Source: Fibrobacter succinogenes
GTDB lineage: Bacteria; Fibrobacterota; Fibrobacteria; Fibrobacterales; Fibrobacteraceae
NCBI GenBank assembly: GCA_902791475.1
Contig: CADAWC010000006.1
Location: 1-64,000, forward strand
DNA length: 64,000 bases
Direction: 5' to 3'
Shown: positions 2,919-21,299 of the stretch, piece after piece
How positions within the stretch are numbered: position 1 is the first letter of the stretch
How the letters are laid out: every line of letters begins with the position of its first letter
Made by a program: the position numbers and the translations under genes
Notes under the pieces: generated by a model
What the model saw: only the letters and a program-made list of their open reading frames with translations
Database searches by the model: none
What the model was told of the DNA's origin: nothing

Positions 2919-3608
2919 ATGAAGACAATCGGTTTGATTGGCGGAATGAGCTGGGAAAGTACAATCACGTACTATGAAATTTTGAATAAGGAAATTGTCA
3001 GTGCTTTAGGTGGTTTCCATAGTGCAAAAATTTTGATGTACAGTGTCGATTTCGCTGAACTCGAAGCGAATATGTCCAATGGCAATTGGGATGGCAATGC
3101 GGCAATTCTCGCAGACGCAGCTAGGCGTCTCGAACGTGCGGGGGCTGACTTTATCGTGATTGCGACGAATACGATGCATAAGCTTGTCCCGCAAATCGAA
3201 CGTGAAATTCATATCCCGATTCTGCACATTGCCGATGCGGCTGCAACAAGCGTTATTCGCGATGGCTTTACGAAAGTCGCGCTGTTCGGTACCAAATTCA
3301 CGATGACACAGGACTTTATCAAGGACCGCCTTAAGAGCGCTGGCCTCGAAGTGATTGTGCCGGACGCTCCGGATATTGAAATTGTGAACAACGTTATTTT
3401 TAATGAACTTTGCTTGGGTAAGGTTCTCGATGCATCGCGTGCAGAATACCAGCGCATCATTGAAAGCTTGAAAGAACGTGGTGCTGAATGCGTTATTCTT
3501 GGTTGCACGGAAATCGGCATGCTTATCTCCGCAGAAGATAGCGTGCTCCCCGTGTACGATACGACCATCATCCATGCTAAAGAGGCCGCCCGACAAGCGC
3601 TAGAATAA
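2919..3608 (+). CDS. Aspartate/glutamate racemase family protein (YgeA-like)
   Basis: A cofactor-independent amino acid racemase of the Asp/Glu/hydantoin racemase superfamily, 229 residues. It tracks E. coli YgeA closely: MKTIGLIGGMSWEST at the N terminus, TNTMHK at the first catalytic strand and LGCTEIGML at the second. As in YgeA, the first catalytic position is a threonine (TNTMHK) and only the second is a cysteine (GCTE), unlike the Cys/Cys pair of glutamate racemase. YgeA is reported to act broadly on amino acids rather than in the main peptidoglycan route. The start at 2919 is preferred over 2883 because it has an ACGGAGAA site 6-8 nt upstream and matches the family start. It appears monocistronic. 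Confidence 0.88.
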   Translation: MKTIGLIGGMSWESTITYYEILNKEIVSALGGFHSAKILMYSVDFAELEANMSNGNWDGNAAILADAARRLERAGADFIVIATNTMHKLVPQIEREIHIPILHIADAAATSVIRDGFTKVALFGTKFTMTQDFIKDRLKSAGLEVIVPDAPDIEIVNNVIFNELCLGKVLDASRAEYQRIIESLKERGAECVILGCTEIGMLISAEDSVLPVYDTTIIHAKEAARQALE

Positions 3609-18804: not shown

Positions 18805-19146
18805 ATGGGTCTTTTTGACAATCGTTTTGCTAGTAAAAATGCGGCCATGAGCCGTGCTTTCTCCATTGATTCCGAAAAGGACAAGCAGAAGCGCAATTCT
18901 CCCCGCGAGCCAGCCGCCCCCAAGATGGGCATTTGCGACAAGTGCCACAAGGAAGCCTTGCTGCGCTCTTACCGCACCCGTGAAATGTCTGTGTCCGACG
19001 GAGCCGCGAGTTTTGGGACGGTGGTGAAGCACCTCTGCGAAGATTGTGCCCCGCGTTCCAAGCGCTTCGAAGACGCAAACGTGCCTGCGATGGACAAAAA
19101 GCAAGTCAAGAACTTGATGAAGTTTGCGAAGAAGGGACTGCTGTAG
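18805..19146 (+). CDS. Small zinc-finger-like protein
   Basis: A 113-residue basic protein with a CDKCHK knuckle (about residue 44) and a second pair CEDCAP (about residue 73), which could hold one zinc ion. A strong AAAGGAGATG ribosome site lies before the ATG, 2 nt after the previous stop. Start MGLFDNRFASKNAAM and tail KKQVKNLMKFAKKGLL are not recognised. Third gene of the TusA-domain unit, followed by a terminator. It may bind RNA or protein; no function is assigned. Confidence 0.65.
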   Translation: MGLFDNRFASKNAAMSRAFSIDSEKDKQKRNSPREPAAPKMGICDKCHKEALLRSYRTREMSVSDGAASFGTVVKHLCEDCAPRSKRFEDANVPAMDKKQVKNLMKFAKKGLL

Positions 19147-19180
19147 TAAAAACAAGCTGAAATTAGAGTTTTGAACTTTA

Positions 19181-19214
19181 AAGGGATATGCCCGCGAAGG
19201 CGGGCGTATCCTTT
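19181..19214 (+). terminator. Hairpin terminator of the TusA-domain unit
   Basis: AAGGGATATGCCCGC pairs with GCGGGCGTATCCTTT around GAAG. It lies between the small zinc-finger gene and the convergent gene 19213-19851 and is long enough to serve both; the T tract is weak. Confidence 0.6.
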
Positions 19215-19851
19215 AATATTTAATGATATGACAATTGTTGCTTGTCGAAAATCGCCCGCTAGCGTCTCGATTGAACGTCTTTGACTTTGAATCTTTTGCG
19301 GTGCGCAATCGATGAATTGTTTGCGTCTGATTCCCCTGAATAACGGTGTATTCGCCTACTGCAGAAAGCTTGGGTACGTAATCGCAATGTGTATTTTCGT
19401 CCCATACGTTGTAATATAATGCAGAGTAGTTTTTGACGTAAAGCGTATCACCGATATTTAACTCAAGATCGCTTGGGTAGAGAATCCATGTTGAGTCTGC
19501 GACCTTTGACATAAGGGTTTCTTTTTCGGAATGAATTTTAAAATTGTGTAGTACTGCTCGAGCACCGCGACTTGTTTTTGCGGATTCACTTTGAGTGTAT
19601 TTTACGGTAACGTTGCAACCGGGAATTGCTTTCATGCAAATTGGATCCGTACTGAGGTTAATATTCGCTTCAGCGACAATGCCTGAAATATCTACGGTGT
19701 TGCCCAAATTAGGGAATGAGGACATGTCTGTGTTTTCGGTAGGCAATTCATTCTGAATCTGCATTCCTTTGGGAGTGCTGCTGATTTTGCAGGACTGAGC
19801 CATAGCTTCGCCCAATGCAATAAGAATGAGTATAAAGGAAATTTTTTTCAT
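19213..19851 (-). CDS. Exported protein of unknown function
   Basis: A 212-residue protein with a signal peptide (MKKISFILILIALGEAMAQS, cleavage near AMA-QS). The mature part has beta-rich features, four to six cysteines likely in disulfides (CMKAIPGCNVTVKY, THCDY, NCHIIKY), and the short C-terminal phrase DASGRFSTSNN that may be a decayed sorting tail. No family recognised. The 3' end overlaps the terminator shared with the convergent unit. Confidence 0.6.
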   Translation of the reverse strand: MKKISFILILIALGEAMAQSCKISSTPKGMQIQNELPTENTDMSSFPNLGNTVDISGIVAEANINLSTDPICMKAIPGCNVTVKYTQSESAKTSRGARAVLHNFKIHSEKETLMSKVADSTWILYPSDLELNIGDTLYVKNYSALYYNVWDENTHCDYVPKLSAVGEYTVIQGNQTQTIHRLRTAKDSKSKTFNRDASGRFSTSNNCHIIKY

Positions 19852-19962
19852 ACATATAATGTATTTTTAATTGAGATAAAGTTCAAGATGTTCAATTTGT
19901 GTTTTGGGTAAATTATAATAAATTGCGAAAATTTTACACAAAAAATGTGGGCCAAAATCTCG

Positions 19963-19982
19963 AAAAAAGCGTGTTAATATAA
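19963..19982 (+). promoter_or_regulatory. 20-nt motif shared by both Rpn-type genes
   Basis: AAAAAAGCGTGTTAATATAA lies 47 nt before the first Rpn-type gene. The same 20 nt with one change (AATGTAA) stand at 29323-29342 before the second. Sharing of an upstream motif by two paralogues 9 kb apart suggests a common promoter or regulator site, or the boundary of a duplicated element. Confidence 0.5.
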
Positions 19983-20028
19983 AGGGGCGTGTTTAAATCC
20001 GCTCCGCTTCACGTAAACAGGGGATCAA

Positions 20029-21066
20029 ATGGACGTTCAAAATAAAAAATGTGCAGACCCGATTCTTGAAAAACTTGGACTCGGGCGTTTTTACCATGGA
20101 GATAAACCGCTAGTTTGGATCGCTGATTCTCCGAAGTCGAATAAACTTCACGAAGATGTTGCCTCGTATAATGCCGAAGCATGCGTTTTATCGCAGTATT
20201 TTGCCAAGGAAGGTGAATTTGGACCTTATGCAAGCCTTTTGTACGACAAGACTTTTAAGAAGACGTTTTCTCCGGATTCAAGGCGCGGGAAACGAAATTT
20301 GTTGAATCTGTTGAACGATATTCTTGAGGGACAGATCCCGCAAAAGATTATGGATGTAGCTTCGCAACAGCCGGAACTCAATGATTCCGGTAGCAAGGTT
20401 TCCAAATCTTCAATTCTTGATTTGCATTGTCGCGATGAACATGATAATTTTATTGAAATAGAGGTGCAGATTCAGCGGGAAACGAATTTTTTGAAGCGTT
20501 TGGTGTTTTATTCAAGTCAGATGATTGTGCAACAGGGTGAACCAGGTCCCGATTGGGATTACGATGTCAAGCCTGTCTATGTCATTTCTTTTGCTCGTTT
20601 TCGGGTGTTTGATGATGATAGGCCACTTCACCGTGCCGGAATTCTTGATTATGAAACCGCGGAGCAGTTAGTTGACTGTGCGAATTTTACGATTATTGAG
20701 CTCCCGAAGGTTAAGAGGATGATTCGCCCAAGTGATTCGGAAATCGCCAAGTGGCTATTCATGTTCCGCTATTTGGACCGCCTCAAGGAGCTTCCACCTG
20801 CTCTGAAATCGGAAAAGCTCGAGGGCTTGCTTCCGTATGCCGAACTAGCTAGATTTAATAAAAAGGAACTTAGAAGGTACAGGTATATTATGCACTTAAA
20901 ATGGGATAGATACGCTCAACAGTTGGCTTTTGCAGAAGATAACCCTGATTTCGTGAAGAAAATCGAGGAAAAGGTGTTAAATGCGGTAAGGCAAAATATG
21001 CGTAAAGACGGAGTTTCTTCTGATAAAATTCAGTCTTATTTGAATGTTTTAGAAAATGCCAAGTAG
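20029..21066 (+). CDS. PD-(D/E)XK nuclease family transposase (Rpn-like)
   Basis: A 345-residue member of the PF12784/Rpn group, nucleases related to recombination-promoting transposase-like proteins. The family core is visible from about residue 64: FGPYASLLYDKTFKKTFSPD, LLNLLNDILEGQI, then the catalytic strand ILDLHCRDEHDNFIEIEVQ with Asp and ExQ of the PD-(D/E)XK fold. The N-terminal ~60 residues are an extension not seen in the paralogue at 29407. The C terminus (FNKKELRRYRYIMHLKWDRY) is repeated directly after the stop. Such genes often occur in many copies in Fibrobacter and can move. A 20-nt upstream motif is shared with the paralogue. Confidence 0.85.
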   Translation: MDVQNKKCADPILEKLGLGRFYHGDKPLVWIADSPKSNKLHEDVASYNAEACVLSQYFAKEGEFGPYASLLYDKTFKKTFSPDSRRGKRNLLNLLNDILEGQIPQKIMDVASQQPELNDSGSKVSKSSILDLHCRDEHDNFIEIEVQIQRETNFLKRLVFYSSQMIVQQGEPGPDWDYDVKPVYVISFARFRVFDDDRPLHRAGILDYETAEQLVDCANFTIIELPKVKRMIRPSDSEIAKWLFMFRYLDRLKELPPALKSEKLEGLLPYAELARFNKKELRRYRYIMHLKWDRYAQQLAFAEDNPDFVKKIEEKVLNAVRQNMRKDGVSSDKIQSYLNVLENAK

Positions 21067-21184
21067 GTTTATTTAATAAAAAGGAACTTAAAAGGTACAG
21101 GTATATTATGCACTTGAAATGGGACAGATATGCTCAAGAATTGGCATTTGCAGAAGATCACCCTGATTTCGTTAAGAAAATAGG
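20854..21184 (+). repeat. Direct duplication of the Rpn gene 3' segment
   Basis: About 113 nt at 20854-20966 recur, with scattered changes, at 21072-21184. Both encode FNKKELxRYRYIMHLKWDRY followed by AQxLAFAED.PDFVKKI. After the repeat the sequences diverge, so the second copy carries a different tail. Confidence 0.85.
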
Positions 21185-21299
21185 GGACGAAGCTGTTGAA
21201 AAGGCTTTGAACCTTGTTGAACGAATGTTAAAGAAGGGTGCTTCGATGGATAAAATTCGAGCTTCTTTAGGTCTTTCCGAGAATACAAAGACCGCGTAA
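21069..21299 (+). pseudogene. Alternative C-terminal fragment of the Rpn-type gene
   Basis: A reading frame (in a different phase from the upstream gene) encodes a second version of the Rpn C terminus: FNKKELKRYRYIMHLKWDRY, then a distinct tail ending SLGLSENTKTA. An ATG at 21108 lies within it. It has no catalytic core and probably no ribosome binding site. It looks like a displaced C-terminal cassette left by recombination, or part of a paralogue lost by deletion. Confidence 0.6.

Follow-up and report, generated by a model that had tools for sequence, protein, structure and literature searches.

Organization of the Locus

The window, a stretch of 64,000 nucleotides from Fibrobacter succinogenes, contains an Rpn gene whose 3′ end is partially repeated just downstream of its stop codon. 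The features of the locus are as follows:

19146–21295, no strand: stretch that related species with an empty site lack; on the right it ends in coincidence with the stand-alone tail's stop
20029–21066, + strand: Rpn nuclease gene (RpnL), 345 aa, delimited by its open reading frame and profile matches
20854–20961, + strand: shared segment, copy 1, comprising the end of the Rpn body and the start of the tail
20875–20883, + strand: proposed internal ribosome-binding site AGG-TAC-AGG, copy 1
20890–21066, + strand: predicted intragenic short product (RpnS-like, 58 aa) of the gene's own tail, from comparative evidence
20962–21063, + strand: variable end of the Rpn gene's own tail
21071–21184, + strand: shared segment, copy 2, with homology beginning 5 nt past the stop of the Rpn gene
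21093–21101, + strand: proposed ribosome-binding site AGG-TAC-AGG of the stand-alone tail, copy 2
21108–21299, + strand: stand-alone tail ORF, RpnS-like, with a type-B end, 63 aa

The first gene is an Rpn nuclease, exceeding in profile searches the curated cut-offs of both PF12784 (E = 3.5e-36; 125.5 bits against a cut-off of 27.4) and TIGR01784 (E = 8.1e-18; 65.2 bits against 52.1). Asp131, Glu145 and Gln147 (20419–20421, 20461–20463 and 20467–20469), which we take to be the PD-(D/E)XK active site, are invariant in all 12 aligned full-length Rpn sequences. When 12 full-length Rpn sequences were searched as a profile against solved structures, nothing matched at E ≤ 0.01, and a structure model of the full-length protein (pLDDT 42.3) was too poor for use.

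Comparison of 20843–20969 with 21061–21187 reveals 88% identity across 127 nt at a spacing of 218 nt, and the BLAST match between the two repeat copies (115 of 130 positions identical; E = 2e-44) excludes chance. The earlier note had reported that 20854–20966 recurs at 21072–21184 in another phase, and this is borne out: the offset of 218 nt is not divisible by 3, thereby placing the second copy in a different frame from the Rpn gene. Starting at about 21030, the frame of the second copy stays open, with no internal stop or frameshift, up to its stop codon at 21297–21299, and it contains an ATG at 21108. The different downstream tail that the note had ascribed to the second copy is likewise real. 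Identity falls from 91.7% over the 108 nt of the shared segment (20854–20961) to 60.6% over the next 99 nt, and thus the 3′ ends of the two copies truly differ. The longest exact runs shared by the copies in the BLAST alignment are about 20–24 nt, and the onset of the repeat lies just 5′ of a conserved internal start codon.

At synonymous sites, the copies differ at 6.0 of 19.7 within the shared part and at 15.7 of 21.7 within the variable part. Because this divergence is much higher in the variable part, simple duplication in tandem of the tail that the gene itself carries was rejected as insufficient; recombination at the shared segment, rather than such duplication, would account for the contrast.

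Signatures of a Predicted Internal Start at the Tail Boundary

In Escherichia coli, Rpn genes have been shown to contain internal starts that yield RpnS; this small protein, made from the tail, blocks RpnL, the toxic full-length product (Zhong et al., PMC10327210). We looked at the codons around the tail boundary across Fibrobacter, counting related sequences as independent and giving no formal p-value for the counts. First, the tail-boundary codon was found to be a start codon in all 64 distinct sequences (ATG in 49 and GTG in 15), a set that combines rpn genes and tail pieces and in which full-length genes make up 36 of the 64. Second, wherever this codon specifies valine it is GTG (15 of 15), against a background of 34.7% in full-length genes. 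Third, in the type-1 sequences, the type found in the window, both upstream arginine codons are AGG in 13 of 13 instances (background 11.3%). In the type-2 sequences, the glutamate codon that forms the AGG is GAG in 46 of 47 instances (background 29.4%), with the adjacent glutamate codon being GAA in 47 of 50. Such retention of the synonymous AGG and of the start codon is the trace expected of an internal gene. On this codon-level evidence, the Rpn gene very likely also encodes a short RpnS-like tail protein from 20890, and by analogy with the E. coli proteins this tail is probably an antitoxin translated on its own.

The shared segment also occurs in an E/H variant (QELAFAEDHPDF), which we observed in three tails (L001 2580–2768, L027 and L005), all of them in orphan or broken genes; where genes with this tail type are intact, they have Q/N in place of E/H.

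The Stand-Alone Second Tail

The variable end of the stand-alone tail shows 82% identity to the tail of an intact gene in the sister genome G047 and about 80% to those of C6:69k, a paralogue in the same genome, and G018, against 60.6% to the adjoining Rpn gene. Since the variable ends of the two neighbors do not match, the orphan tail may not act on the adjoining nuclease. Within the same interval, the orphan and G047 tails are four residues longer than those of C6:69k and G018. The pairwise dN/dS between the orphan tail and its G047 counterpart is 0.13, a value that cannot be assigned to the period since the orphan tail became a separate unit.

A search of the stand-alone tail against Pfam recovered no family above cut-off, and PF14261 (DUF4351) was not listed at E ≤ 1. 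A structure model of the tail displays three helices (pLDDT 80.7); a Foldseek search with this model gave no match at E ≤ 0.001, with RpnA (7th0) absent and one irrelevant match listed. The second copy is most likely a stand-alone RpnS-like tail protein, a known arrangement, here with a non-matching tail. The earlier note had treated the second copy as donor DNA and missed that its importance may also lie in a small protein.

Exchange of Tails among Fibrobacter Rpn Genes

The body of the Rpn gene in the window is closest to that of G047 (89.0, 93.3 and 88.4% identity in three blocks). The G047 gene has a tail of the orphan's type and the gene in the window bears another. The paralogue C6:95k is a further mosaic: immediately ahead of the shared segment it agrees with C6:69k at 98.2%, and beyond the segment its identity to G075 is 100%. 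Tail variation among Rpn genes, which the earlier note had suggested following, was indeed found across the genus in both directions, with the same head joined to different ends and the reverse. The heads of L157 and L158 are identical over 66 of 66 bases and their ends are 64% alike. Conversely, the end of L158 is common to L128 and L174 over 78 of 78 bases with heads at 79%, and L034 and L048 have ends at 100% and heads at 73%. Some pairs with seemingly different ends, such as L112 with L137 or L138, are length artefacts of the stop-anchored alignment and were set aside.

These patterns support C-terminal tail exchange as a part of the history of these genes. The exchangeable C-terminal cassette that the earlier note had put forward thus stands over evolution, in the form of the mosaic tails and the G047-like body with another tail; the analysis revealed neither a dedicated recombination site nor a recombinase. 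A fusion between the two copies in the window would remain in frame, joining 275 codons to a further 75 codons up to the stop at 21299.

The Insertion Site

The transporter gene downstream served as the anchor for a comparison of 29 loci (L055–L083). An empty site was found in five of them (L059, L061, L062, L064 and L065), where the ORF ending at about 19145 is joined straight to 21296. On its right side, the insert ends where the second tail has its stop, and thus it is the distal tail that forms the outer edge of the inserted stretch. Two other genomes, G001 and G046, retain 19683–19985 with a different rpn alongside, and G008 has another insert at the site. The earlier note had reasoned that an identical arrangement in all strains, with frameshifts building up in the second copy, would count against exchange. 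In a comparison set of one genome per species, the sites of the relatives are instead empty or hold another rpn or another insert, and the second copy in the window is intact.

The gap before the transporter gene holds inserts that vary by species (this rpn, another rpn or unrelated sequence; window 19146–21295, L055, L058 and L060), and it may be a favored insertion spot.

Solitary and Decayed Tails across the Genus

We surveyed 80 genomes for partial Rpn loci. Away from contig ends, the matches listed include at least 17 loci with only the C-terminal part (the tail) and none with only the N-terminal part (the nuclease); the 17 are not independent, their flanks showing common origins for G022/G013, G046/G008, G060/G012 and G061/G022/G060/G013. 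Loci at contig ends (among the matches listed, at least eight N-only and at least three C-only) were set aside from this comparison. Also set aside were at least three middle pieces among the matches listed, broken genes with both parts, G062:C19 (residues 107–307, with stops) and G060:C10:3239 (the native start fused to the tail). The preponderance of C-only over N-only pieces among the non-edge matches listed suggests that tails outlive nucleases, as expected of an antitoxin. G022 has a full rpn 0.8 kb ahead of a solitary tail; at the corresponding position in G013, the tail is present and the rpn is missing.

Several solitary tails are themselves decayed by stops, frameshifts or deletions, and G061, G022, G060 and G013 have a frameshifted tail remnant in common. 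Comparisons of orthologous solitary tails (Nd 4.0/160.8 with Sd 2.0/43.2; Nd 4.5/156.2 with Sd 2.5/41.8) revealed no clear purifying selection.

Other partial loci take a range of forms. The same-genome paralogues C6:69k and C6:95k (L023 at about 1575 and L024 at about 1408) have internal deletions with a frame break in the nuclease part; these sit at short repeats near TGTGC/GTGC, and the tail frame is still open. At L022 82–520 (G000:C15, minus strand), two further tail-like ORFs without a nuclease follow the paralogue C15:544–1563. The second shows 44% identity over 52 residues to the end of another rpn and the first was judged by eye; this may possibly be an array of left-over tails. On the reverse strand of L114, at about 3236–3586 (G060:C10:3239–3544), the nuclease part is deleted, so that an rpn start and its first residues lead straight into a tail in the same frame.

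Probable Origin and Possible Role of the Second Tail

We favor, at a probability of about 0.62, the reading that the locus pairs an Rpn toxin–antitoxin gene with an extra, free-standing copy of that gene's antitoxin-like tail, with the antitoxin role being predicted from sequence and from the E. coli precedent. The long product would be the nuclease with its tail, and translation from the internal start at 20890 would probably yield the tail by itself as well. With a putative ribosome-binding site and a start codon of its own, the ORF at 21108–21299 would provide a second tail, of a different type. On the simplest order of events, the starting state would have been a G047-like gene with a type-B tail at the edge of the insertion. 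Recombination at the shared segment then most likely joined a new tail to the older gene and left the old tail standing apart as a gene of its own. If this leftover tail behaves as RpnS does in E. coli, it would bind any Rpn nuclease whose tail matches and silence it. It would also constitute a reservoir, from which in-frame recombination could restore the gene's former tail.

It is rather unlikely that the second copy is a remnant with no present function, namely the 3′ end left over when a second, tandem rpn was lost or an exchange failed. Decaying rpn pieces are indeed common, as in C6:69k, C6:95k and the frameshifted tail of G061/G022/G060/G013, and the solitary orthologues show no clear selection. 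However, the second copy has an open frame, a start codon and a putative ribosome-binding site, and E. coli independently has the same compact geometry of a stop followed by a site. The non-edge matches listed, with at least 17 C-only loci against 0 N-only, also speak against it.

Less probable still is the model of the earlier note, by which the second copy would be a silent donor kept mainly as DNA for exchange of the nuclease tail. An in-frame fusion is possible, mosaic tails exist, and one-copy E. coli strains bear the distal end on rpnE; yet the second copy has its own start and site, and the locus offers no visible dedicated recombination site or recombinase and exact runs of only about 20–24 nt. 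Self-driven diversification, in which Rpn would cut near the shared segment and provoke the exchange, is very improbable, and this part of the earlier note's idea found no support here. The discussion in PMC10327210 suggests that such a mechanism might operate, and E. coli Rpn is reported to raise recombination (PMC5350276), but ordinary homologous recombination is enough.

Returning to the favored reading of a toxin–antitoxin gene with a second antitoxin-like tail, we tentatively extend it, as a possibility well short of an even chance, to a more general proposal. The Rpn tail might be a joint specificity and antitoxin cassette, the displaced tail then becoming a downstream antitoxin against nucleases of the old type that could be retaken by in-frame recombination. 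As nuclease and inhibitor would be encoded on the same DNA, a new tail would bring its own antitoxin and could thus be swapped in without self-poisoning. If true, this would explain how the toxin changes specificity while never being without an antitoxin, and the solitary tails across the genus would represent a repertoire of immunities.

Comparison with Known Systems

The closest parallels to the locus are found among the E. coli Rpn genes. Zhong et al. describe that RpnS may come from a gene of its own and that rpnE and rpnC may each be followed by a second copy, and they already mention fusion and loss (PMC10327210). Our own inspection of K-12 showed that the tail copy, annotated as the pseudogene ypaA, begins at the base right after the rpnE stop, at AAGGAG, so that the duplicated part sets in with the ribosome-binding site. 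Both rpnE–ypaA (rpnES) and rpnC with rpnCS resemble the window in having an rpn with an internal RpnS start, followed by a separate tail with its own site and start. In rpnE–ypaA, as in the window, the two copies differ at the 3′ end. The geometries are comparably tight: the window has the stop at 21066, the onset of homology at 21071 and the ATG at 21108, and the copy in rpnE–ypaA starts at the next base. There are also differences. The Fibrobacter Rpn is of the PF12784 type, whereas that of E. coli is of the PF04754 type (PMC5350276). Further, unlike in rpnE–ypaA, the downstream tail in the window fits another rpn allele better than its neighbor's.

At the level of the tails, an hhalign comparison of 50 Fibrobacter tails with YpaA gave a probability of 76% (E = 2.2e-5; 36 columns). 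The tail model has three helices, the number described for RpnAS, but its Foldseek search gave no match at E ≤ 0.001. The length shift of four residues between the orphan/G047 and C6:69k/G018 tails matches the variable tail of RpnL/RpnS with its four-residue steps. A YpaA profile finds RpnA (7th0) weakly (E = 0.058), with designed proteins scoring higher.

Among 5426 E. coli genomes, the distal (ypaA-type) end is present in 5363 and the proximal (K-12 rpnE-type) end in 3101. Four of six strains have both copies, and the one-copy strains, IAI1 and an O157:H7 strain, bear the distal end on rpnE. Of 20 evenly spaced rows of the E. coli set, 10 have the distal end annotated as belonging to rpnE, and the other 10 have it within a gene annotated separately. 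Judging from these sequences, genes with this layout do undergo tail exchange, in E. coli in one direction or the other. The second-tail layout is now seen outside E. coli, the idea of an intragenic antitoxin is extended with codon-level evidence to the PF12784 branch of Rpn, and tail exchange becomes countable across thousands of E. coli genomes. Our searches found no literature on a recombination-promoting nuclease in Fibrobacter.

Two further classes of systems offer partial parallels. CDI and Rhs systems deploy a secreted effector delivered by contact, with a separate immunity gene. Their orphan toxin ends, as described, resemble the arrangement in the window in that an old C-terminal module is left behind after recombination at a shared segment; unlike in those systems, the tail in the window would, by analogy with RpnS, itself be the antitoxin. 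Orphan antitoxins and anti-addiction modules resemble the solitary tails in being an antitoxin-like part without a toxin; unlike them, the putative antitoxin here is a piece of the toxin gene.
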